The notes under the pieces were generated by a model. The model saw nothing but the letters and a program-made list of their open reading frames with translations, made no database searches and was not told the DNA's origin. This document shows, in pieces, positions 1,495-19,658 of a stretch of DNA of 64,000 nucleotides. This stretch comes from Gallionella sp. (GTDB taxonomy: Bacteria; Pseudomonadota; Gammaproteobacteria; Burkholderiales; Gallionellaceae), in the NCBI GenBank assembly GCA_028689145.1, contig JAQTWT010000010.1, positions 51,116-115,115 on the forward strand. Reading direction: 5' to 3'. The position numbers were made by a program, and so were the translations under genes. Each line of letters starts with the position of its first letter. Position 1 is the stretch's first letter.

Positions 1495-1914
1495 TCAGGA
1501 GCGGGCGAGGGGAGGCGGGTCGAACAGCGGCAGGGTAAGCGTGTAGAGTGTTACCAGATAAGGGGTAAAGGCGTGATCCGGCTGTTGTTCGGCAAGCGGC
1601 ATCGCTACCGAATTGGCCATGTACCCGCAGCATGCCAGATGGCAGATCGCATGGTTGTTGCAGGAGGAGTTCGACTGGTCATGCTGACCGGAAGGCATCT
1701 CGTGATGCGCGGCAAGCTGCTCGTGCTGCGCGTGATCGATCATGGTGGTGTTCTGGGTATGCTGCGAGTGGTGTTCGTTTTGCTGCATCGCCGCCGCATG
1801 GCAGTCACCGCCCATCGACTGCATGGCAACCACCCCGGCCAGCGCATTGCCGCTAAACAACGGCAACCAGACGGCCAAAAACAATGCGATAAATTTTCTG
1901 ATGGGACGTGACAT
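1495..1914 (-). CDS. Small His/Met-rich exported protein of the copper locus
   Basis: I do not recognise a named family. From the ATG at 1914 the product is about 139 residues: a basic start and hydrophobic signal (RKFIALFLAVWLPLFSGNALA), then a segment crowded with His, Met, Gln and Cys (HHSQHTQ, HAQHEQLAAHHEM, CNNHAICHLACC). This composition suits binding of soft metals in the periplasm. It resembles the small proteins of the DUF2946 type often placed first in cus/cop operons, but I cannot confirm that. An in-frame TTG at 1950 would lengthen it by 12 residues; it has no ribosome site, so the ATG is preferred. Confidence 0.6.
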   Translation of the reverse strand: MSRPIRKFIALFLAVWLPLFSGNALAGVVAMQSMGGDCHAAAMQQNEHHSQHTQNTTMIDHAQHEQLAAHHEMPSGQHDQSNSSCNNHAICHLACCGYMANSVAMPLAEQQPDHAFTPYLVTLYTLTLPLFDPPPLARS

Positions 1915-2046
1915 GTGCGTCAGCTTGGCAAAACTTGGGAGCGATGTCAATAGTTAGCATATATAAAACCGGACTGATGTGGCGAAGCTCGGCTAACGGC
2001 CATTCATAAAATTCCGAGCATGCACTCAGCCCAAATTCGTGCGTGA

Positions 2047-2063
2047 GGCACTATTCTTGTGCA
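2047..2063 (+). promoter_or_regulatory. NtrC-like binding site upstream of nasT
   Basis: GGCACTATTCTTGTGCA is a near dyad with the GCAC-N7-GTGC geometry of enterobacterial NtrC sites (for example TGCACTAAAATGGTGCA at glnA). It is centred about 86 bases before the predicted sigma-54 start site at about 2141, a usual place for an enhancer. Seen in sequence; binding is inference. Confidence 0.5.
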
Positions 2064-2114
2064 TTGCTCCGATATGGTCATCAAGTTGGCCCATATCCAT
2101 GGGGGATTTTGATG

Positions 2115-2130
2115 TGGCTCGCTTATTGCA
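2115..2130 (+). promoter_or_regulatory. Sigma-54 (RpoN) promoter of nasT
   Basis: TGGCTCGCTTATTGCA matches the -24/-12 consensus TGGCAC-N5-TTGCA with one change, and GG and GC have the required 12-base offset. The predicted start is near 2141, about 20 bases before the TTG start codon. Together with the NtrC-like dyad upstream it suggests induction by nitrogen limitation. Confidence 0.6.
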
Positions 2131-2160
2131 GCGTCATATTGAAAAATGCAAGGAGCCAAA

Positions 2161-2736
2161 TTGAAACGAATTCTGATAATTGATGATGTGAGAGATCGTG
2201 CGGTCTGGCTGAAGGCCAGTCTCGAGCTTGCCGAATTCGATGTCGTCGGGGTGCTTGCTTGGGAGCAGGTGGATGAGCGCTCGATACAGGCCGCCTTGGC
2301 GGACGTGATCATTGTCGATGCGAATGCGCCCGGCCGGGATACGCTGGAGCAGATCAGCCTGATGTCCTCGACGCTGGAAAAGCCTGTCGTTGTGCTGGGC
2401 GGGCAGAAGGACCAGCACAGCATCCAGGAAGCCATGCGCGCGGGAGTCAGTGCTTATGTGGCGCATACGATACAGGGCGAGGATCTGAGCGGCATCATTC
2501 AGGTGGCTGCCGCCCGTTTTTCCGAGCACAAGCGGTTGCGCGACGAGTTGAAGGAGGCGAAGGATCAGCTGGCGGAACGCAAGCTTGTGGATCGCGCCAA
2601 GGGCATATTGATGACGGATCACGGCTATAACGAGGCGGATGCCTACAAGCGGATGCGCAGCATGGCGATGAGCAAGGGCAAGCGGATGGCGGAAATCGCC
2701 GAAGCCCTCATTCTGGCCAAGGAGCTTAGCGCATGA
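2161..2736 (+). CDS. nasT: NasT-type response regulator with ANTAR RNA-binding domain
   Basis: A 191-residue protein: a receiver-like domain at the N-terminus (acidic pair in LIIDD, aspartate in VIIVDANAP) and a C-terminal ANTAR domain (ERKLVDRAKGILM followed by EADAYKRMRSMAM). ANTAR proteins bind paired hexaloop hairpins in leader RNAs and block intrinsic terminators; NasT does this for nitrate assimilation genes. The TTG at 2161 is chosen because AAGGAG lies 5 bases before it; the ATG at 2146 would place this Shine-Dalgarno inside the coding region. The switch lysine of normal receivers is absent (AYVAHT instead of a KP pair), as in other atypical NasT receivers. No nasS sensor gene is adjacent. 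A leader with hexaloop and terminator follows the gene. Confidence 0.85.
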   Translation: MKRILIIDDVRDRAVWLKASLELAEFDVVGVLAWEQVDERSIQAALADVIIVDANAPGRDTLEQISLMSSTLEKPVVVLGGQKDQHSIQEAMRAGVSAYVAHTIQGEDLSGIIQVAAARFSEHKRLRDELKEAKDQLAERKLVDRAKGILMTDHGYNEADAYKRMRSMAMSKGKRMAEIAEALILAKELSA

Positions 2737-2760
2737 ACATGCATGAATTTGTACGGGCGC

Positions 2761-2777
2761 TGCACCAAAGTCGCACA
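2761..2777 (+). promoter_or_regulatory. Weak NtrC-like site upstream of nrtA promoter
   Basis: TGCACCAAAGTCGCACA has a perfect left NtrC half-site (TGCACCA) and a degenerate right half (3 of 5 matches). It is centred about 117 bases before the predicted sigma-54 start at about 2886, a normal enhancer distance. Half-site only, so tentative. Confidence 0.3.
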
Positions 2778-2859
2778 GGGATGAGACTGAATCGCCCATT
2801 CGATGCGACAAGATTGTGTAATAGTATGATTATTAATTGATATATTTATAATTTTATTC

Positions 2860-2875
2860 TGGCATGACTGTTGCT
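2860..2875 (+). promoter_or_regulatory. Sigma-54 (RpoN) promoter of the nrt-nir-nas operon
   Basis: TGGCATGACTGTTGCT agrees with the RpoN consensus TGGCAC-N5-TTGCW at all but one of the strong positions, with GG at 2861-2862 and GC at 2873-2874. The predicted start, near 2886, lies just before the hexaloop hairpin, giving a leader of about 145 bases before the nrtA start codon. The same arrangement (RpoN promoter followed by antitermination leader) is known for Klebsiella nasF. Confidence 0.65.
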
Positions 2876-2891
2876 TTGTAATAACCATCAA

Positions 2892-2926
2892 CGAGCCAAC
2901 GGCGGTTCGGAGAAGCTTAAGTAAGC
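2892..2926 (+). ncRNA. ANTAR-type hexaloop leader RNA element
   Basis: The first hairpin has stem CGAGCC/GGTTCG (one G-U pair) closing the six-base loop AACGGC, which has A at loop position 1 and G at position 4, the conserved bases in ANTAR targets. After a 5-base linker, GCT-TAAGTA-AGC can form a second, weaker six-base loop with G at position 4 but U at position 1. The element starts a few bases after the predicted transcription start and is followed by a strong terminator, so it is probably the binding site of the nasT product. The second loop is the weak point. Confidence 0.55.
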
Positions 2927-2939
2927 GGCAATAAAGGAC

Positions 2940-2983
2940 AAAGGCGTCCCACTGCGCAAAAGCGCAGTCGGACGCCTTTTTTA
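2940..2983 (+). terminator. Intrinsic terminator (attenuator) in the nrtA leader
   Basis: A 10-bp stem (AAAGGCGTCC with GGACGCCTTT) and a 6-7 bp upper stem (ACTGCGC with GCGCAGT) around an AAAA loop, with one C-C mismatch between them, ending in a run of six T. It lies 47 bases before the nrtA ATG, after the RpoN promoter and hexaloop. As the end of nasT it would be ordinary; its position after the nrtA promoter makes it an attenuator. Confidence 0.85.
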
Positions 2984-3030
2984 TTTTGCAGATTCAATTC
3001 GCGGAACTGTTACGTAAAGGAGAGCAGGAA

Positions 3031-4338
3031 ATGGAAAATATTAAAGTAGAAATCACCGGCACTGAAAAATCCGCTGCAGTGGAAAACAGTGCTCCAGAAC
3101 AAACCAGCCGGAGGGACTTTATGAAACTGATGGGAGCAAGTTTGGGGGCTGCCGGGATTATGTCCATGGTGCCGATGGGAACGCGTGCGTCTGCCTGGGC
3201 AGGCGGTTCGGATGCACCGGAGCTCAAGGAGGTCAAGGTGGGCTTCATTCCGCTGACTGATTGCGCCTCGGTAGTGATTGCCTCGGTGATGAAGTTCGAC
3301 GAGAAATACGGCATCAAGATCATCCCATCCAAGGAAGCATCCTGGGCGGCGGTGCGCGACAAGATGGTCAACGGCGAGCTTCACGCGGCTCATGTGCTAT
3401 ATGGACTCGTTTACGGCGTACACCTCGGCATAGGCGGGCAGAAGAAAGACATGTCGGTGCTGATGACGTTGAACAACAACGGTCAGGCTATCACGCTTTC
3501 CAACCAGCTCAGGGACAAGGGGGTGACTACCGGTGCTGCCCTGAAGAAGCTGGTGGACACCGAGAAGCGCGACTATACCTTCGCCCAGACTTTCCCCACC
3601 GGCACCCATGCCATGTGGCTGTATTACTGGCTGGCAAGCAACGGCATCAACCCGCTGAGCGACGTCAAGACCATCACCGTGCCGCCGCCGCAAATGGTGG
3701 CCAATATGCGGGTCGGCAACATGGACGGTTTCTGCGTCGGCGAGCCCTGGAATAACCGCGCCATCTACGACAAGATCGGTTTCACTACGGCGACTACGCA
3801 AGATATCTGGAAGGATCATCCCGAAAAAGTGCTGGGCTGCACCGCGGAGTTCGCGCAGCGATATCCTAATACCGCACGCGCATTAATCATGGCGGTGCTG
3901 GAGGCATCGAAGTTTATCGACGAAATGTCGAACCGTCGCAAGGTCGCTGAGATCATCGCCGACAAGTCCTATGTGAACTGCCCGGTCGATGTGATCGATC
4001 AGCGTCTGGAAGGCAAGTATGAAGACGGCCTGGGCAAGAAGTGGAACGACCCGAACTACATGAAGTTCTGCAACGACGGCGCGGTGAACTTTCCCTACCT
4101 CTCGGACGGCATGTGGTTCCTTACCCAGCATAAACGCTGGGGCTTGCTTAAGACTGATCCGGACTATCTGGGGGTCGCCAAGCAGATCAACCGGATCGAC
4201 CTCTATAAGCAGGCGGCGTCGCAGGTCAAGGTGCCCGTACCCAAGGATGCGATGCGCAGTTCCAAGCTGATAGACGGCAAGGTGTGGGACGGCAAGGATC
4301 CCAAGGGCTATGCAGCCAGCTTCAAGGTGCGGGCATGA
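3031..4338 (+). CDS. nrtA: Nitrate ABC transporter, substrate-binding protein (NrtA-like)
   Basis: A 435-residue periplasmic binding protein of the NrtA/CmpA family that captures nitrate for import. Residues 26-32 are the twin-arginine signal SRRDFMK, followed by the hydrophobic stretch LMGASLGAAGIMSM, so export by Tat is expected. The body carries family segments such as KVGFIPLTDCASVVIA and NMDGFCVGEPWNNRAI. The ATG at 3031 is chosen because AAGGAG lies 8 bases before it; the upstream in-frame TTG would start inside the T run of the terminator. The stop overlaps the nrtB start (ATGA). First gene of nrtA-nrtB-nrtD-nirB-nirD-nasA. NasS nitrate sensors are homologous but lack a signal, so this is the transporter subunit. 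Confidence 0.9.
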   Translation: MENIKVEITGTEKSAAVENSAPEQTSRRDFMKLMGASLGAAGIMSMVPMGTRASAWAGGSDAPELKEVKVGFIPLTDCASVVIASVMKFDEKYGIKIIPSKEASWAAVRDKMVNGELHAAHVLYGLVYGVHLGIGGQKKDMSVLMTLNNNGQAITLSNQLRDKGVTTGAALKKLVDTEKRDYTFAQTFPTGTHAMWLYYWLASNGINPLSDVKTITVPPPQMVANMRVGNMDGFCVGEPWNNRAIYDKIGFTTATTQDIWKDHPEKVLGCTAEFAQRYPNTARALIMAVLEASKFIDEMSNRRKVAEIIADKSYVNCPVDVIDQRLEGKYEDGLGKKWNDPNYMKFCNDGAVNFPYLSDGMWFLTQHKRWGLLKTDPDYLGVAKQINRIDLYKQAASQVKVPVPKDAMRSSKLIDGKVWDGKDPKGYAASFKVRA

Positions 4339-5108
4339 TAAAAGCCAGGAAATTCTTCGGGGAGCACATTCTTCCGCCGCTGCTGGGGTTGGGGATGTTC
4401 GTCCTGGTCTGGGGGCTGATATCGCAGACCAGCGAGAGTCTGCCGGGTCCGCTCAAAACTTGGAACTCGGCGGTGATCCTGTTCACCGATCCGTTTTACC
4501 AGAACGGGCCGAACGATCAGGGTATAGGCTGGAACGTGATGTACTCCCTGGGTCGGGTCGGCATCGGTTTCGGCCTCGCCGCGCTGATCGGCATCCCGCT
4601 CGGCTTCATGATCGGCCGCTTCGACTTTCTCAACAAGATGGCGGCACCTATCGTGAGCATGCTCAGGCCGGTATCGCCGCTGGCCTGGCTGCCCATCGGC
4701 CTGCTGGTATTCAATGCATCGAATCCGGCGGCCATCTGGGTGATCTTCATCTCCAGCATCTGGCCGATGATCATCAACACCGCGGTGGGCGTGCGCCAGC
4801 TGCCGCAGGATTACCTCAACGTGGCGCGGGTGCTTAACCTGTCCGAGTGGAAGATATTCACCAGGATATTGTTTCCCGCCACGCTGCCCTACATGCTGAC
4901 CGGCATACGCCTCGCCATCGGCACGGCATGGCTGGTGATCGTCGCGGCGGAAATGCTGACCGGCGGAGTTGGCATCGGGTTCTGGGTCTGGGACGAATGG
5001 AATAACCTCAATGTCGAGCACATCATCATCGCAATTTTCATCGTCGGCATCGTCGGGCTGCTGCTGGAAATGATGCTGGTCAGGCTTGCCAAACGCTTCA
5101 GCTATTGA
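4335..5108 (+). CDS. nrtB: Nitrate ABC transporter, permease (NrtB-like)
   Basis: A 257-residue inner-membrane permease of the NrtB/SsuC/TauC group. It has about six hydrophobic segments (ILPPLLGLGMFVLVWGLI near the start, EHIIIAIFIVGIVGLLLEMM near the end) and the cytoplasmic coupling motif around NVARVLNLSEWKIFTRILFP. The ATG at 4335 overlaps the nrtA stop by 4 bases, indicating translational coupling. With the binding protein before it and the ATPase after it, it forms a complete nitrate importer. Bicarbonate or sulfonate transport is possible for the family, but the nitrite and nitrate reductase genes downstream make nitrate the clear choice. Confidence 0.9.
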   Translation: MIKARKFFGEHILPPLLGLGMFVLVWGLISQTSESLPGPLKTWNSAVILFTDPFYQNGPNDQGIGWNVMYSLGRVGIGFGLAALIGIPLGFMIGRFDFLNKMAAPIVSMLRPVSPLAWLPIGLLVFNASNPAAIWVIFISSIWPMIINTAVGVRQLPQDYLNVARVLNLSEWKIFTRILFPATLPYMLTGIRLAIGTAWLVIVAAEMLTGGVGIGFWVWDEWNNLNVEHIIIAIFIVGIVGLLLEMMLVRLAKRFSY

Positions 5109-5119
5109 TCGGAAATGCC

Positions 5120-5911
5120 ATGAAAAGTTATGTACAAATCGAAAGCGTGCAAATGTCGTTCTCAACCAGGCAGGGTGAGTTTGTCGCACTCAGGGATATC
5201 GATCTGAAGATTGAGCGCGGCGAGTTCATCACGCTGATCGGTCACTCGGGTTGCGGCAAATCCACCCTGCTCAACCTGATAGCCGGACTGCTGCTGCCGA
5301 CCGCAGGTGTGATGCTCTGCGCGGATCGGGAGATCGCTGGACCCGGCCCGGACCGCGGCGTGGTGTTCCAGAACCACTCACTGCTGCCCTGGCTGACCTG
5401 TTTTGACAACGTCTATCTCGCGGTCGAGCGGGTGTTCAGTGCGACGGAAGACAAGGCGCTACTCCAGCAGCGCACCCGGGAAGCGCTGGCGCTGGTGCAC
5501 CTGACTCATGCGGAACACAAATATCCGCATGAAATTTCCGGCGGTATGAAGCAGCGCGTCGGCATCGCCCGTGCTCTCTCCATGCAACCCAAGGTACTGT
5601 TGATGGACGAGCCGTTCGGTGCGCTGGATGCGCTGACCCGAGCGCATCTGCAGGACGAACTGATGAAAATCGTTGCGGCAACGAACAGCACGGTGGTGAT
5701 GGTCACGCATGATGTGGACGAGGCGGTATTGCTGTCCGACCGCATCGTGATGATGACCAACGGCCCGGCAGCGACCATAGGCGAGATACTGACGGTCGAC
5801 CTGCCCAAGCCGCGCAATCGACTGGCGCTGACGAACGATGCGCGTTACCACGCCCTGCGCGGCGGGGTGCTGGAGTTCCTGTACCAGAAGCAGGCCAAGG
5901 AAGCGGCTTAG
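5120..5911 (+). CDS. nrtD: Nitrate ABC transporter, ATP-binding protein (NrtD-like)
   Basis: A 263-residue ABC ATPase that powers the nitrate importer. All nucleotide-binding motifs are present: Walker A GHSGCGKST at residues 41-49, Q-loop (VVFQNHSLLPW), signature SGGMKQRVGIARA, Walker B LLMDEPFGALD, and H-loop VTHDVDEA. The ATG at 5120 is preferred over an in-frame TTG at 5105. Only this single-domain ATPase is present; the NrtC type with a fused regulatory NrtA-like domain, known from cyanobacteria, is absent. The gene starts 11 bases after the nrtB stop and is followed by a 237-base gap before nirB. Confidence 0.9.
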   Translation: MKSYVQIESVQMSFSTRQGEFVALRDIDLKIERGEFITLIGHSGCGKSTLLNLIAGLLLPTAGVMLCADREIAGPGPDRGVVFQNHSLLPWLTCFDNVYLAVERVFSATEDKALLQQRTREALALVHLTHAEHKYPHEISGGMKQRVGIARALSMQPKVLLMDEPFGALDALTRAHLQDELMKIVAATNSTVVMVTHDVDEAVLLSDRIVMMTNGPAATIGEILTVDLPKPRNRLALTNDARYHALRGGVLEFLYQKQAKEAA

Positions 5912-5978
5912 CGCCATGGGAAAGCCGTTCGCTGCAATGTTTCAGGCCTAGCTCAAGCGCAGACACGAGGTTGCGATC

Positions 5979-6083
5979 ATGTATTTCGGCCGAACCAGCG
6001 AGTTTCTGGTGACGATATCGGACCGCATCGAGGCCGGCAGCGAGGTGGAGGCTTCTTCGCGCAAGTCCGTATTCGAGGCGTGA
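5979..6083 (+). CDS. Possible small ORF (34 codons) before nirB
   Basis: An ATG-started frame of 34 codons (MYFGRTSEFLVTISDRIEAG, then EVEASSRKSVFEA) in the gap between nrtD and nirB. No clear ribosome site and no family that I recognise. It could be a short leader peptide, a gene remnant, or chance; the rest of the gap (5912-6148) shows no promoter I can support. Confidence 0.2.
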   Translation: MYFGRTSEFLVTISDRIEAGSEVEASSRKSVFEA

Positions 6084-6148
6084 GCGGCTTCTGACCGAGT
6101 CGTGTTTTTCGTGGATGGAATGAAGGTTTTTAGGATTTTGAGGAATAT

Positions 6149-8614
6149 ATGATGACGAAAAATAAAATGCGGCTGGTCGTGGTGGGCAACGGCATGGCCG
6201 GGATAAGGGCGGTTGAAGAGCTGTTGAAGCTTTCCCCCGATCTCTATGACATCACGGTTTTCGGTGCAGAGCCGCATCCGAATTACAACCGCATTCTGCT
6301 GTCTCCGGTGCTGGCCGGGGAGATGACGATACAGGATATCATCCTGAATCCGCTCGACTGGTATCGCGATAACGGCATTACATTGCACCTTGGAAAGCGT
6401 ATCGAGCGCATTGATCGCGCAAGACGCAAAGTGATCGCCGCCGACGGCTTCGAGGCCGACTACGACCGCTTGCTGCTGGCAACGGGATCGACGCCGTTCA
6501 TCCCGCCGATTCCGGGCAACGACCTGCCTGGGGTGATCGGTTATCGCGACATTCGCGACACCGATGAAATGATCGCAGCGGCACGCGAACATCGCCATGC
6601 GGTGGTGATCGGCGGCGGCTTGCTGGGGCTGGAGGCCGCCAACGGCCTGCGCCAGCGCGGTATGGCTGTGACGGTCGTACACCTGATGCCCTGGCTGATG
6701 GAGCGCCAGCTCGACAAGGCAGCAGCCGATATGCTGAAGACCTCGCTCGAAGCGCGCGGTCTCAAGTTCCTGCTGGAGAAGCAGACCGAGGCACTGATAC
6801 GCGGCGAGTCGGGCCGTGTGGCCGCGTTGCGTTTCAAGGATGGCCTGGAGATTCCCGCCGACCTCGTGGTGGTAGCCGCCGGCATCCGCCCCAGCATGGC
6901 GCTGGCCGAATCCGCCGGTCTGTACTGCAATCGCGGCATTGTGGTGAACGATACGATGCAGACCTACGATCCCCGCATCTACGCCGTCGGCGAATGCGTG
7001 TCGCACCGCGGCATCGCCTATGGGCTGGTCGCGCCGCTGTTCGATCAGGCCAGGGTCTGCGCCAATCATCTGGCGCACTACGGCATCGCGCGTTACACGG
7101 GTTCTGTGACCTCGACCAAGCTCAAGGTGACCGGTATCGACCTGTTTTCCGCAGGCGACTTCATGGGCGGCGAGGGCACCGAAGAGATCGTCCTGCATGA
7201 TCCGGCTGGCAATGTGTACAAGAAGCTGGTGGTGAAGAACGACATCCTGGTCGGCGCCGTGCTGTACGGCGACACGGCGGACGGGGCCTGGTATTTCCAG
7301 CTGGTCAAGGACGGGCAAAACATCCACGAGATACGCGACCATCTGATGTTCGGCCAGAACCATATCGGCGACGTCGGCCATGCCGGCCAGTCCAAGGCGT
7401 CCGGCATGCCGGACGAGGCCGAGGTGTGCGGCTGCAATGGCGTGTGCAAGGGCGACATCGTCAAGGCGATCAAGAGCCACGGCCTGTTCACGCTGGATGA
7501 CGTGCGCAAGCACACCAAGGCATCCTCTTCGTGCGGATCGTGCACCGGTCTGGTCGAGCAGATTCTCGCCTCGACGGTGGGCGGGGCTTACACGCCGTCG
7601 CAATCGAAGGACAAGGCGGTGTGCTGCTGCACCGACCATTCCCATGGCGTGGTGCGCGAGGCGATCCGCAGCCAGCACCTGATCGCGATCCCCGACGTGA
7701 TGAAGGCGCTGGAGTGGAAGACACCCAACGGCTGCGCATCCTGCCGTCCGGCGTTGAACTACTACTTGATCTCGACCTGGCCGGGCGAGGCGAAGGACGA
7801 CCCGCAGTCGCGCTTCATCAACGAGCGCGCGCACGCCAACATCCAGAGGGACGGCACCTATAGCGTGGTGCCGCGCATGTGGGGTGGGTTGACCACGCCT
7901 GCCGAGCTGCGCGCGATTGCCGATGTGGCGGAGAAATATCGCGTGCCGACGGTGAAGATGACAGGCGGCGCGCGTGTCGATCTGCTCGGCATCAAGAAGG
8001 AAGACCTGCCGAAAATCTGGGCCGAACTCGGCGCAGCCGGCATGGTTTCCGGCCATGCCTACGGCAAGAGCATACGCACGGTGAAGACCTGCGTCGGCGC
8101 CGAGCATTGCCGTTTCGGCACCCAGCGTTCGATGGACATGGGCGTCAAGCTGGAGAAGATGCTGTTCGGCATGTGGAGCCCGCACAAGGTCAAGCTCGCG
8201 GTTTCCGGTTGCCCGCGCAATTGTGCCGAGGCCGGCATCAAGGACATCGGCATCATCGGCGTCGATTCCGGTTACGAGCTGTATGTCGCCGGCAATGGCG
8301 GCATCAAGACCGAGGTGGCCGAATTCCTGTGCAAGGTGAAGAGCGACGATGATGTCATGGAGTATTCCGGCGCTTTCCTGCAGCTCTATCGCGAGCAGGG
8401 CTACTACATGGAGCGCACCTGCCATTACGTCGCCCGCGTCGGACTCGACCATGTCAAGGCGGCGGTGGTGAACGATGCGCCGGAACGCCGGGCGCTCTAC
8501 GAACGCCTGCTGTTTGCCCTGCAGGATTACGAAGACCCCTGGCAGCAGGCGGTGCAGCAGCCGGCGGTGCGGCGCGAATACGAAGTCATTCAAATTAAGG
8601 GAGTAACGGCATGA
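6149..8614 (+). CDS. nirB: Assimilatory nitrite reductase, large subunit
   Basis: An 821-residue NirB that reduces nitrite to ammonium with NAD(P)H. In order: FAD/NAD(P)H oxidoreductase domain (VVVGNGMAGIRAVEEL at the start, second dinucleotide fold VVIGGGLLGLEAANGL), two BFD-like [2Fe-2S] segments (CGCNGVCKGD, then CCCTDHSHG to CASCRPALN), the ferredoxin-like half-domain, and the sirohaem/[4Fe-4S] domain with Cys 648 and 654 (CVGAEHC) and 688 and 692 (CPRNC). Length and domain order are normal. GAGG precedes the ATG by 6 bases. It overlaps nirD by 4 bases. Its cofactor synthesis gene (cysG) is not in the window. Confidence 0.95.
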   Translation: MMTKNKMRLVVVGNGMAGIRAVEELLKLSPDLYDITVFGAEPHPNYNRILLSPVLAGEMTIQDIILNPLDWYRDNGITLHLGKRIERIDRARRKVIAADGFEADYDRLLLATGSTPFIPPIPGNDLPGVIGYRDIRDTDEMIAAAREHRHAVVIGGGLLGLEAANGLRQRGMAVTVVHLMPWLMERQLDKAAADMLKTSLEARGLKFLLEKQTEALIRGESGRVAALRFKDGLEIPADLVVVAAGIRPSMALAESAGLYCNRGIVVNDTMQTYDPRIYAVGECVSHRGIAYGLVAPLFDQARVCANHLAHYGIARYTGSVTSTKLKVTGIDLFSAGDFMGGEGTEEIVLHDPAGNVYKKLVVKNDILVGAVLYGDTADGAWYFQLVKDGQNIHEIRDHLMFGQNHIGDVGHAGQSKASGMPDEAEVCGCNGVCKGDIVKAIKSHGLFTLDDVRKHTKASSSCGSCTGLVEQILASTVGGAYTPSQSKDKAVCCCTDHSHGVVREAIRSQHLIAIPDVMKALEWKTPNGCASCRPALNYYLISTWPGEAKDDPQSRFINERAHANIQRDGTYSVVPRMWGGLTTPAELRAIADVAEKYRVPTVKMTGGARVDLLGIKKEDLPKIWAELGAAGMVSGHAYGKSIRTVKTCVGAEHCRFGTQRSMDMGVKLEKMLFGMWSPHKVKLAVSGCPRNCAEAGIKDIGIIGVDSGYELYVAGNGGIKTEVAEFLCKVKSDDDVMEYSGAFLQLYREQGYYMERTCHYVARVGLDHVKAAVVNDAPERRALYERLLFALQDYEDPWQQAVQQPAVRREYEVIQIKGVTA

Positions 8615-8925
8615 GCGGCTGGATCGGGGTCTGCGCGCTGGAAGATATCGCCCCGCAGGGCAGCCGCGTCGTGGTGTCGGAACAGGGCGACATCGCGCTG
8701 TTCCGCACCGCGGATGATCGGATATTCGCAATGCACGACAAATGCCCGCACCGGGGCGGGCCGCTGTCGCAGGGCATCGTTCACGGCGAGACCGTCACCT
8801 GCCCATTGCATGGCTGGAAGATCGGCCTGAAGGATGGCGAGGCGGCGGCGCCGGACCAGGGCTGTGCCAGGAGCTTCGAAGCCAGACTGGATGGCGGCCT
8901 GGTCTGGCTGAAGTTCGAGCGATGA
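8611..8925 (+). CDS. nirD: Nitrite reductase small subunit (Rieske type)
   Basis: A 104-residue NirD with a complete Rieske-type [2Fe-2S] motif: CPHRGGPLSQG followed by TCPLHGWKI, both with the Cys-x-His ligand pairs. NirD partners NirB in the cytoplasm. Many NirD proteins lack the ligands, so this is a cluster-bearing version. Its ATG overlaps the nirB stop (ATGA), which implies coupled translation. It is followed by a 271-base non-coding stretch bounded by inverted repeats. Confidence 0.9.
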   Translation: MSGWIGVCALEDIAPQGSRVVVSEQGDIALFRTADDRIFAMHDKCPHRGGPLSQGIVHGETVTCPLHGWKIGLKDGEAAAPDQGCARSFEARLDGGLVWLKFER

Positions 8926-8955
8926 GTGTGAGTCTGCCATGCAAGCAGGCCGGGA

Positions 8956-9202
8956 CATGATCCTAGAAACCTCAGTTGACCGCTCCACTTGGTACGCATG
9001 ATCTTGAACAGAAAAATGTTTTCTGGTTTATCCACGCTCACCGTTTGGGTGAGTCGCTACAGCACGTATTGCACGTCCCTCCCGGCGCATGGCGGCGTTG
9101 CTTCTCCTCGGAATGGAACGACCATTCCTCGTCGTCGCGCCTTGCCCTGCACCGCGATGAACGCACACTACATGCCGTCCAACGGAGGATTCTAGGATGA
9201 TG
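8956..9202 (+). repeat. 247-bp segment bounded by 23-bp imperfect inverted repeats
   Basis: Bases 8956-8978 and the reverse complement of 9180-9202 agree at 20 of 23 positions (core ATCCTAGAA). The right arm contains the GGAGG and the ATG of nasA. Inside lies a perfect 7-bp hairpin at 9110-9128 (GGAATGG/CCATTCC). No convincing gene is present between the arms. The shape resembles a small non-autonomous transposable element or a degraded insertion sequence; I cannot name the family and see no clear target duplication. Confidence 0.4.
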
Positions 9203-11917
9203 GAAACGAAATCGACCTGTCCATACTGCGGCATCGGCTGCGGCGTCATTATCGAGCACGATGGTGCAAGGATTAGCGGCGTGCGCGGCGATCCGGACCA
9301 TCCGGCCAACTTTGGACGGCTCTGCACCAAGGGAGGTTCGCTGCACCTGACCATGACGGCGCAGGCGATGTCGGTCAGGTTGCGCTATCCGGAGTTGCGC
9401 GCCACGCGTGCCGCGCCGCGCCAGCGCGTGAGCTGGGAAGCAGCACTCGAACAGGCGACGGAGCGCTTCGCCGAGGCCATCGCGGAGCATGGCCCGAATA
9501 GCGTTGCCTTCTACATCAGCGGCCAGTTGCTGACCGAGGACTATTACGTTTTCAACAAACTGGCGAAGGGGCTGATAGGCACCAACAATATCGACACCAA
9601 CTCGCGCCTGTGCATGAGTTCGGCAGTGGCGGGCTACAAGGCAACACTGGGTTCGGATGCGCCGCCTTGCTGCTACGAGGACATCGATCATGCCGATTGC
9701 CTGCTGGTCGCCGGTTCCAACACCGCGTGGGCGCATCCGGTGCTGTTTCGCCGCATCGAGGATGCGAGAGCGGCGCGTCCGCAGATGAAAATGATCGTCG
9801 TCGATCCGCGCCGCACCGACACTGCCGAGGCCGCCGATCTGCATCTGGCCATACTGCCCGGCACGGACATCGCGCTCTACAACGCGATGCTTCATGTGCT
9901 GCTGTGGGAAGACTTGATAGATGACGATTACATCCGCGACCATACCGAGGGATTCGATGCGCTGAAGCGCAAGGTGCGCGAATACACGCCGGAAATGGCT
10001 GCGGCGATATGCGGGGTGAAGGCCGAGGATATCGTCACCGCCGCGCGCTGGTTCGGCGAAGCCGGAACCTCGCTTTCCCTGTACTGCCAGGGGCTGAACC
10101 AGTCGAGTCACGGCACGGACAACAACGCGGCGCTGATCCATTTGCATCTCGCCACCGGCAAGATCGGCAAGCCCGGTTGCGGGCCGTTCTCGCTGACGGG
10201 GCAACCCAATGCGATGGGCGGGCGCGAGGTCGGCGGCATGGCGAATCTGCTCTCCGCGCATCGCGACATGAACAACGCCAAACATCGGGCCGAGGTGGCT
10301 CGGCTCTGGGATGTGGTCGATGTGCCGGACAAGCCGGGGCTGACCGCGGTGGAACTTTTCGATGCGATGCATCGCGGCGAAATTAAGGCGCTCTGGATCG
10401 CCTGCACCAACCCGGCGCAATCGTTGCCCGATCTGAATCATGTGCATGAAGCGCTGGCGGCCTGTCCCTTTGTGGTGGTGCAGGAGGTGACACCACATAC
10501 CGATACGGCCGCCTATGCTGATCTGCTGCTGCCTGCCGCAGGCTGGGGCGAGAAGGACGGGACGGTCACCAACTCGGAGCGGCGCATCTCGCGCGTGCAA
10601 GCCGCCGTGCCGCCGCCCGGCGAGGCCAGAGCCGACTGGAGCATTGCCGCGGACTTCGCGCGGCGATTGGAGCTGCGCATAGCCGGACGAGGCGCTATCG
10701 GCGGTGCGACATTGTTTACTTATCGTTCCGCCGAGGAAATCTTCAACGAACATCGCGCCACGACGGCGGGCCGCGATTTGGATATCAGCGGCCTGTCCTA
10801 TGCGCTGCTGGAGGCAGTCGGCCCGCAGCAATGGCCTTTCCCTGTAGATGCTGCGCAGGGATGCCCGCGCCTGTATGCGGACGGCCGGTTTCAGACCGCC
10901 AGCGGCCGAGCCCGATTCGGCGCAGTCGAGCATCGTCCGACCGCCGAGGCCACCGACGCACGTTATCCGCTGCATCTCAACAGTGGCCGCCTGCGCGACC
11001 AGTGGCATGGCATGAGCCGTACCGGTGTGGTGCCGCGTCTCTATGCCCATGCACCCGATCCGGTCATCGAAATGAGTGCGCGCGACATGGAGCGGCGCGG
11101 GATAGTCGACGGCGACCTGGTGTGCGTCAAAAGCAGGCGAGGCACGTTGATTTTGCGCGCGACGCAATCGACCACCTTGCGTCCTGCGCAAAGCCATATT
11201 CCGATGCACTGGGGAGGCCGCTTCATGCGCGGCCTAGGCGTCAATGCGCTGACATCCGCCAGTGTCGATCCGGCCTCATTCCAGCCCGAACTTAAGCATG
11301 CCGCAGTCCAGGTCGAGAAATTTGCAACGGCCTGGCAACTGGTTGTCATGCGGCGAGACGATCAGGGAGGGCTGCGCGAGTCGTTGCAACCCTGGCTGGC
11401 CCGTTTTGATTATGCGACGCTGACTTCGACGGGGCGCGATGAAGATATCGTTCTCATGCATGCATGGGGGCAATCGGAGGGCACGTTGCCCTCAGCCGAT
11501 ATATTGAACGAATTGAGTGCAGACATGGGGTTGGATGATCCGGCGATACTGATGTTCAGCGATACGCGCCGCGGCATTGCCAAACGCGCCTTGATCCGGG
11601 ACGGTCGTTTGGTCGGAGCCCTGCTGTGCCATGAAACCCGATCTGCCGACTGGCTGATCGACATCATCGTGCGAGGCAGCGATACTCAGGCGCTACGCAA
11701 ATGGCTGCTGGCACCACTGAGCAGTCCGCCAAGCTCCGCTCCGGCTCGGGGGCGGGTGGTATGCAACTGCTTCGACGTTTCGGAAAACGAAATCGCTGCC
11801 GACCTCGCAGCCGGCCTCGATCTGGCCGCGCTGCAAAGCAAGCGGAAATGCGGAACCTCTTGCGGCTCTTGTCTGCCAGAGTTGCGGCGCATGACTATTC
11901 AATGCAATGGCGCATGA
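9197..11917 (+). CDS. nasA: Assimilatory nitrate reductase, catalytic subunit
   Basis: A 906-residue molybdopterin (bis-MGD) enzyme reducing nitrate to nitrite in the cytoplasm. The N-terminus has the [4Fe-4S] motif CPYCGIGC, with a fourth Cys in RLCTKGG; the middle is the molybdopterin oxidoreductase domain (CQGLNQSSHGTDNNAAL, GQPNAMGGREVGGM); a molydopterin-binding domain follows near residues 590-710; the C-terminus is a BFD-like [2Fe-2S] domain (VVCNCFDVSENEI, then KCGTSCGSC). GGAGG lies 8 bases before the ATG. No NasB flavoprotein is adjacent, so its electron donor is encoded elsewhere or is ferredoxin. Last gene of the nitrate operon. Confidence 0.95.
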   Translation: MMETKSTCPYCGIGCGVIIEHDGARISGVRGDPDHPANFGRLCTKGGSLHLTMTAQAMSVRLRYPELRATRAAPRQRVSWEAALEQATERFAEAIAEHGPNSVAFYISGQLLTEDYYVFNKLAKGLIGTNNIDTNSRLCMSSAVAGYKATLGSDAPPCCYEDIDHADCLLVAGSNTAWAHPVLFRRIEDARAARPQMKMIVVDPRRTDTAEAADLHLAILPGTDIALYNAMLHVLLWEDLIDDDYIRDHTEGFDALKRKVREYTPEMAAAICGVKAEDIVTAARWFGEAGTSLSLYCQGLNQSSHGTDNNAALIHLHLATGKIGKPGCGPFSLTGQPNAMGGREVGGMANLLSAHRDMNNAKHRAEVARLWDVVDVPDKPGLTAVELFDAMHRGEIKALWIACTNPAQSLPDLNHVHEALAACPFVVVQEVTPHTDTAAYADLLLPAAGWGEKDGTVTNSERRISRVQAAVPPPGEARADWSIAADFARRLELRIAGRGAIGGATLFTYRSAEEIFNEHRATTAGRDLDISGLSYALLEAVGPQQWPFPVDAAQGCPRLYADGRFQTASGRARFGAVEHRPTAEATDARYPLHLNSGRLRDQWHGMSRTGVVPRLYAHAPDPVIEMSARDMERRGIVDGDLVCVKSRRGTLILRATQSTTLRPAQSHIPMHWGGRFMRGLGVNALTSASVDPASFQPELKHAAVQVEKFATAWQLVVMRRDDQGGLRESLQPWLARFDYATLTSTGRDEDIVLMHAWGQSEGTLPSADILNELSADMGLDDPAILMFSDTRRGIAKRALIRDGRLVGALLCHETRSADWLIDIIVRGSDTQALRKWLLAPLSSPPSSAPARGRVVCNCFDVSENEIAADLAAGLDLAALQSKRKCGTSCGSCLPELRRMTIQCNGA

Positions 11918-11949
11918 AATTCAACCCCGGGACATGGTGGGGATTTCAT
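11914..11949 (+). other. Inverted repeat at the end of nasA
   Basis: ATGAAAT-TCAA-CCCC pairs with GGGG-ATTTCAT to give an 11-bp stem with a 4-base bulge, starting inside the nasA stop. There is no T run, so it may be an RNA-stabilising or Rho-linked hairpin rather than an intrinsic terminator. Confidence 0.3.
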
Positions 11950-12132
11950 GTGTCGCTATTAGACGAGAGTCCGATTTTGACCTTGGATTCAAAATTTGAA
12001 CTGGGAATGTAACTTTTATCACAGACTATATGACGAATAGTTCTTAATATTGCAAACTGCGGTATTTACCATAATGAGTTAAATAGATATTTTTCAATAC
12101 CGTTCCACCACCATATTTTTGAAGGAGTTTTT

Positions 12133-19573: not shown

Positions 19574-19658
19574 TGGTGCCGGGGGGGGGACTCGAACCCC
19601 CACGCCTTGCGGCACCGGATTTTGAGTCCGGCACGTCTACCAGTTCCATCACCCCGGC
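19574..19658 (-). tRNA. tRNA-Leu (anticodon CAA)
   Basis: Read on the minus strand the gene begins GCCGGGGTGATGGAACTGGT and ends with an encoded CCA. The acceptor arms GCCGGGG/CCCCGGC pair fully, the anticodon stem CCGGA/TCCGG closes the loop CTCAAAA (anticodon CAA, reads UUG), a long variable arm (TGCCGCAAGGCG) marks it as a class II tRNA, and the T-arm is GGGGGTTCGAGTCCCCC. A run of nine C joins the T-stem and acceptor stem. Confidence 0.95.

Follow-up and report, generated by a model that had tools for sequence, protein, structure and literature searches.

The window analysed here, a stretch of 64,000 nt from a Gallionella sp. genome assembly (2.74 Mb, 96.7% complete, 23 contigs), carries a nitrate-assimilation operon preceded by a gene for an ANTAR protein and by a leader of about 145 nt. 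The features relevant to this work are the following:

2115-2130, forward strand: sigma-54-like site TGGCTCGCTTATTGCA upstream of nasT, a loose match with the -24 box off consensus
2161-2736, forward strand: nasT-like gene (receiver-like and ANTAR domains, by Pfam), 191 aa from the TTG at 2161 or 196 aa from the ATG at 2146
2860-2875, forward strand: -24/-12 (sigma-54) promoter TGGCATGACTGTTGCT, from the sequence and from a like element where relatives' leaders begin
2892-2909, forward strand: P1 hairpin, CGAGCC-AACGGC-GGUUCG (GGTTCG in DNA), 6 bp, from sequence, fold and covariation
2910-2935, forward strand: P1-P2 linker, 26 nt, containing a weak, non-conserved hairpin (2915-2926)
2936-2949, forward strand: P2 hairpin, GGAC-AAAGGC-GUCC, 4 bp, from sequence and covariation, overlapping the 5' arm of the terminator
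2940-2982, forward strand: predicted intrinsic terminator, stem 2940-2979 (10 + 7 bp) with a T run to 2982, from the fold
3016-3022, forward strand: Shine-Dalgarno sequence AAAGGAG, 8 nt before the ATG at 3031
3031-4338, forward strand: nrtA, nitrate-binding-type protein (PF13379) with a Tat motif, SRRDFMKLMG..ASAWA, read by eye
4335-5108, forward strand: nrtB permease (TIGR01183, above cut-off)
5120-5911, forward strand: nrtC/D ATPase (TIGR01184, above cut-off)
6149-8614, forward strand: nirB, nitrite reductase large subunit (TIGR02374, above cut-off)
9197-11917, forward strand: molybdopterin oxidoreductase with a C-terminal BFD-like domain (NasA/NasC models match below their curated cut-offs)

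The initial annotation of this DNA had taken the gene upstream of the leader to encode an ANTAR protein, and this was borne out: the product of 2161-2733 combines a receiver-like domain (PF00072, 9.4e-9) with an ANTAR domain (PF03861, 3.3e-18), the latter being the sole ANTAR match of the genome. The best solved relative of the window NrtA is the NrtA structure 2g29, and the oxidoreductase at 9197-11917 is likely, from its sequence, to be an assimilatory nitrate reductase of the nasA/nasC type. A small nirD-like gene, recognized by a Rieske-type motif read by eye, follows nirB. Elsewhere in the window, three small genes at 447-1950 on the reverse strand, with His/Met- or Cys-rich stretches, look metal (copper)-related, and a tRNA-Leu (CAA) at 19574-19658, also on the reverse strand, is the only tRNA and the only match above an Rfam gathering cut-off.

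A scan of both strands of the window with the pattern TGGCA[CT]N5TTGC[AT] rendered a single match, at 2860-2875, in which the GG of the -24 box and the GC of the -12 box stand at the correct spacing, so that the good -24/-12 promoter proposed earlier is present and unique by this pattern. With position 2874 taken as the C of the -12 box, transcription is predicted to start at ca. 2886. The strong ribosome-binding site that had also been claimed is there, in the form of the AAAGGAG preceding nrtA. The best NtrC-like site of the window (2761-2777) agrees at 9 of 12 positions, a score equalled or exceeded in 55 of 392 control stretches; NtrC-like sites with at least 10 of 12 bases were found upstream of 35 of 100 leaders of the order, as compared with 7 of 392 controls. 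The element TGGCTCGCTTATTGCA at 2115-2130, one of five loose matches in a pattern scan of both strands of the window, is a sigma-54-like site, and since it lies just upstream of nasT, NasT itself may be under nitrogen regulation.

The 6-bp hairpin noticed at first at 2892-2909 corresponds to P1, whose hexaloop AACGGC (2898-2903) has A at loop position 1 (2898) and G at position 4 (2901). P2 has the hexaloop AAAGGC (2940-2945), again with A1 (2940) and G4 (2943). The very strong terminator, first delimited as 2940-2983, was confirmed as a stem followed by a T run, and the folding energy of 2886-3035 is -52.8 kcal/mol (z -4.3), a value reached by none of 200 shuffled sequences. Because the terminator opens with ten bases that are also the loop and the 3' arm of P2, the two structures are mutually exclusive. 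Hairpins with an A1/G4 hexaloop are common by themselves, 104 of them being found on both strands of the window, and the one whose loop starts at 2940 is the only one that combines an overlapping terminator-like repeat with a second hexaloop 12-70 nt upstream. The locus has three features of a dual-hexaloop antiterminator, two A1/G4 hexaloop hairpins, the second of them overlapping and excluding a terminator, together with an ANTAR protein encoded in the genome.

The initial annotation had placed the second NasT element at 2915-2926, a weaker hairpin with U at loop position 1, and had suggested on this basis that NasT might obey a divergent recognition rule. This stretch is indeed able to fold as a 4-bp hairpin, closed in our analysis by a tetraloop. 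In the nearest relative (L211), with the same spacing, two of its four pairs are broken without any change in P1, in P2 or in the terminator 5' arm; the 82-nt leaders do without the stretch altogether, and the stability of the linker ranks at 0.145 among its shuffles, not clearly above them. Since 2915-2926 is not conserved and a normal A1/G4 hairpin, the canonical P2, begins ten bases further on and runs into the terminator arm, a divergent rule finds no support; we regard it as hardly credible and already close to refuted. The loss of P1 and of its A1/G4 loop in relatives' leaders, which had been named as an observation that would speak against the whole assignment, was looked for, and the outcome did not refute it. 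A role for 2915-2926 as a spacer bringing P1 and P2 close together was suggested by the strong folding of several long linkers elsewhere; it is not claimed here, its stability being unclear against shuffles and its pairs being broken in L211. Strong non-hexaloop hairpins, possibly spacers, are found in the long P1-P2 linkers of L111, L117, L122, L124, L133, L166 and L174.

The distribution of the leader was studied in 250 genomes of the order and 369 genomes of the class. The Rfam model RF03032 (E <= 0.001) matched in 29 of the 250 order genomes, three of the matches being above the cut-off, and in 26 of these 29 loci, the window included, each of the two A1/G4 hairpins has four or more unbroken pairs; two others (L007 and L021) have an interrupted stem. 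The remaining locus, L031 (genome G195), is without P2 and is a likely false match; the protein downstream of it starts like a type IV pilin. All 28 leaders other than L031 start with a sigma-54-type site, two of which (L011 and L023) miss the promoter pattern and were placed by position. A covariance model of promoter, P1 and P2 (R1) was built from 17 of the 28 leaders. The window itself was left out, as were L031 and the leaders whose linker is long, whose promoter is distant or which have three hairpins. R1 recognized the window leader with 65.8 bits (E 2.1e-13), as the sole match at E <= 0.001 in its genome. In a MAFFT alignment of the R1 leaders, 97.2% of the cells of P1 and P2 are paired and 8 of the 11 pairs have changed on both sides, with a covariation of 0.572 as compared with 0.194 in shuffled alignments (0 of 500 as high) and at most 0.162 when the partners were slid.

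R1 matches were found in 83 of the 250 order genomes, one of them being the doubtful L031 site, and in 49 of the 369 class genomes. An ANTAR gene is present in 81 of the 83 leader-positive and in 44 of the 167 leader-negative order genomes (Fisher p 3.5e-30, relatedness ignored); the two leader-positive genomes where none was detected are G140 and G161, the latter being 67% complete. A canonical P2 is present in 95 of 101 order leaders; in 90 of these 95 an overlapping terminator starts inside it, versus 18 of 395 control positions; the parse of the 101 counted five leaders without a canonical P2 and seven without P1. In 79 of the 101, the start of a nitrate-assimilation gene, nrtA (61), nirB (16) or nasA (2), is no more than 450 nt behind P2. 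Leaders of the order are similar in size to that of the window, whose compactness, regarded at first as a peculiarity, is therefore ordinary, and linkers longer than 17 nt occur in 22 of 89 parsed order leaders. An extra hexaloop hairpin is present in 23 of these 89, some probably by chance, and a third A1/G4 hexaloop hairpin lies upstream of P1 and P2 in L110, L127-L131, L137, L139, L140, L157 and L184, from other families of the order.

The NasT of the window shares 80-90% identity with six proteins of its own type and 35-38% with six from the other type. When public genomes were scanned for this clade, 47 loci were obtained, 27 of them in assemblies titled Gallionella, Gallionellaceae, Gallionellales or Sideroxydans and the rest under broader or other names; six of the 47 assemblies also belong to the order sample. 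The nearest locus is from a Gallionellales assembly, at 96%, and the NasT of L211 is 97% identical to that of the window over 191 columns. Among the 45 strong leaders (E <= 1e-5) obtained from the 47 loci and the window, none has lost P2 or the terminator, and 40 retain P1 with four or more unbroken pairs. Across 61 distinct clade rows, three of the four P2 pairs show compensatory changes and 99.1% of the P2 cells are paired, in an alignment that was fitted to the model and includes weak matches up to E 1. Within the operon of the window, no second NasT leader was found in the gap between nrtC/D and nirB, the next-best R1 score in 1900-12000 being 5.6 bits. Several relatives, unlike the window, have a weaker second match before nirB (L212:14065, L214:14052, L221:14096, L222:13773, L227:9931, L229:14053 and L234:14068).

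Two Rfam families resemble this leader. The consensus of the narK RNA (RF03032) comprises a -24/-12 promoter, a CCAACGGCGG hairpin and GACAAAGACGUC, which equals P2, although Rfam pairs only the first hairpin; the window scores 35.1 bits against it, below the gathering cut-off of 43.2. The P11 family (RF00625) corresponds to the Pseudomonas leader upstream of nirBD that is bound by NasT and called NalA (PMC3973561 and PMC12830290), if, as we infer, P11 is NalA. It shares with the window a sigma-54 promoter, a hexaloop hairpin and GGACAAAGGCGUCC running into a terminator, whereas the leader of the window precedes nrtA, in a genome where NasS was not found, and reaches 31.7 bits as compared with a gathering cut-off of 70. 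In both sub-threshold matches, the aligned parts of the window include its promoter, its hexaloop hairpin and GGACAAAGGCGUCC. The five above-cut-off narK matches that were inspected (L003-L005, L064 and L065) all lie at R1 leaders, and a comparison of 20 class loci, from 30 retrieved, with Rfam (E <= 0.001) gave four narK matches, two above the cut-off, one of the four being also a sub-cut-off P11 match. No mention of "narK RNA", "narK motif" or RF03032 was found in the literature searched, which covered few subscription journals.

Among experimentally studied systems, the dual-hexaloop antiterminator of EutV and eutP (Ramesh et al. 2012, where nasF and amiE are also included) is supported by experiment (PMC3369931). 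It has in common with the window two short A1/G4 hexaloop hairpins, of which the second lies at the terminator's 5' base. The window differs in its sigma-54 promoter, its NasT-type regulator, the NasS that was not found and its linker of 26 nt; the linkers of the E. faecalis eut leaders are of 5-12 nt, and one of 14 nt impaired eutP, with the spacing being variable in the published model (same source). The Klebsiella NasR-nasF system is likewise a nitrate-assimilation operon with hexaloop-dependent attenuation, but NasR has a nitrate-sensing domain of its own, whereas the protein of the window has a receiver-like domain. With the NasS-NasT systems of Paracoccus, Azotobacter and Bradyrhizobium, the window shares a NasT-type ANTAR regulator beside assimilatory nitrate genes. 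Two leader hairpins are described in Paracoccus (PMC5424462), and NasT hairpins are predicted in Bradyrhizobium leaders, that of narK included (PMC6759348).

Taken from sequence comparison, the nrtA leader (ca. 2886-3030) is very probably a NasT-controlled antiterminator with two A1/G4 hexaloop hairpins, of which P2 overlaps the terminator. Since the second hairpin overlaps the stop signal, NasT would likely decide whether the nitrate-uptake genes are read. The sigma-54 RNA polymerase would start near 2886, with NtrC as its probable activator when nitrogen is limiting. NasT, encoded by the adjacent gene, would bind the loops of P1 and P2 as other ANTAR proteins do, and the bound loops would hold the antiterminator form so that the polymerase could pass; without active NasT the terminator would form by default and the nrt-nir-nas genes would stay off. 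In its essentials this is the reading of the initial annotation, NasT/ANTAR antitermination behind a sigma-54 promoter, now well supported by the conserved P1, P2 and terminator, the covariation and the co-occurrence with ANTAR genes; its observations on the promoter, P1, the terminator, the ribosome-binding site and the ANTAR gene in front of the leader stood, and the second hairpin and the divergent rule built on it fell.

The mechanism itself is known, and the new part is that no NasS was found beside a NasT leader. According to PMC3795266, NasS is an NrtA relative that lacks an export signal, and the NasS-NasT complex dissociates on nitrate. No PF13379 protein lacking a signal was found in the genome of the window, its single PF13379 match being the Tat-type NrtA, so that a receiver-like and ANTAR NasT was found and a cytoplasmic NasS was not. 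Because no NasS homologue was found, the nitrate input to NasT comes into question. Exactly one PF13379 match was found in 18 of the 83 leader-positive order genomes; it bears a Tat motif in 14 (once with KR instead of RR) and is without one in four. Thirteen of those 14 genomes have an ANTAR gene, the remaining one being the 67% complete assembly. Genomes with NasT, leader, terminator and only a Tat-type NrtA occur in several betaproteobacterial families. An indirect literature search that covered few subscription journals turned up no account of a NasS-less NasT or of an NrtA that serves as its sensor.

In the whole assemblies of the 48 genomes of the window NasT clade, with NrtA and NasS counted at PF13379 matches above 150 bits and Tat or signal-less state judged by eye, 27 have only the Tat-type NrtA, 18 only a signal-less NasS (in G659 read from two contigs), none both and three neither (L213, L215 and L242). 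L215 (genome G619), with a window-type NasT, a different NrtA and no NasS found, is an exception to the either-or pattern, and some NasS-only genomes of the clade carry a different, distantly related NrtA. The Tat-only genomes contain 29 weak PF13379 matches: 28 of them belong to unrelated binding proteins, most with no score and the others with 27 bits or fewer against six reference NrtA/NasS sequences, and one is an unclassified NrtA-type fragment in G648. The exclusion is strong when descent is ignored (Fisher 1.8e-10). About seven changes of state (bootstrap 6-8) are needed on the NasT tree, where well-supported branches force only two, and a pairwise test limited to supported branches had two pairs (median p 0.5), a number with which significance is unreachable. 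The NrtA/NasS tree requires four changes of the NasS label, of which at least three fall on supported branches. These changes appear to run from Tat-type NrtA to NasS, given the Tat outgroups and the NasS proteins with traces of a Tat cleavage region before GGSDAPE. The NasS N-termini of L251 and L248 have such remnants of the NrtA Tat cleavage region, with no twin arginine. A signal-less NasS made from an internal translation start of nrtA was also considered in 22 Tat-type nrtA genes of relatives: the best Shine-Dalgarno energies of the upstream starts are -5.4 to -9.3 (L233 unscored), and most internal starts have weaker ones, between about -2 and -6.7, with -8.4 to -8.9 being reached in L211, L230 and L235. 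No conserved feature was found, and such a start is possible in these three.

The leading candidate for the nitrate sensor of NasT is possibly the cytoplasmic precursor of the Tat-type NrtA. We put forward tentatively that NrtA is bifunctional, its folded, nitrate-free precursor holding NasT in the cytoplasm before export and nitrate freeing NasT to antiterminate the operon of NrtA itself, and that the NasS proteins of the clade are NrtA copies minus the export signal, in lineages that abandoned this NrtA as a part of the transporter. The either-or distribution of NrtA and NasS and the repeated switches suggest such a double role of the precursor without proving it. It may well be, on the other hand, that NasT in the NasS-less genomes does not sense nitrate, being always competent for binding, with the operon set by sigma-54 and NtrC, by the amount of NasT, or by a ligand such as c-di-GMP; a NasT ungated by nitrate, or gated by c-di-GMP, is about as likely as a sensing NrtA precursor. 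The sigma-54-like site before nasT agrees with it, as do the loss of nasS in Paracoccus, which gives nitrate-independent yet ammonium-repressed expression (PMC5424462), and the binding of c-di-GMP to NasT reported in a review (PMC12830290). An ungated NasT accords less well with the mutual exclusion of the NasS-only and Tat-NrtA-only states, with the conservation of P2 and terminator in 25 of 25 strong leaders of the NasS-less clade group, and with the receiver-like domain of NasT, which is equally constrained in NasS-less and NasS-bearing genomes (median dN/dS 0.062 and 0.071, respectively, in groups that exclude L254, with a Tat-type NrtA, and L255 and L257, with NasS).

It can also be the case that a sensor exists and was missed, either a NasS hidden by a gap in the assembly (23 contigs, 96.7% complete) or a protein of another fold, as the search for a sensor rested on PF13379. 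This seems unlikely, since NasS is likewise not found in 26 of the 47 further genomes of the NasT clade, and an ANTAR gene is combined with a Tat-type NrtA in 13 of the 18 leader-positive genomes of the order that have a single PF13379 match; three genomes (G000, G024 and G115) belong to both counts. Far less probable is that the leader serves mainly to yield a short terminated RNA acting in trans, as the Rfam sRNA label of P11 would have it: the window does match P11 below threshold, but PMC12830290 (see also PMC3973561) describes Pseudomonas NalA as an antitermination leader, and the 79 order leaders with nrtA, nirB or nasA close behind P2 speak against it as well.

The results indicate that the A1/G4 rule holds at the leader of the window, and that the Rfam narK RNA and the sRNA-labelled P11 both carry the dual-hexaloop pattern of NasT targets. 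The wider question is how the nitrate signal reaches NasT when NasS is missing. If NrtA has the double role proposed, the binding protein of a transporter would regulate its own operon from the cytoplasm before being exported, which is feasible because the Tat system transports folded proteins, and NasS would gain a visible evolutionary origin.
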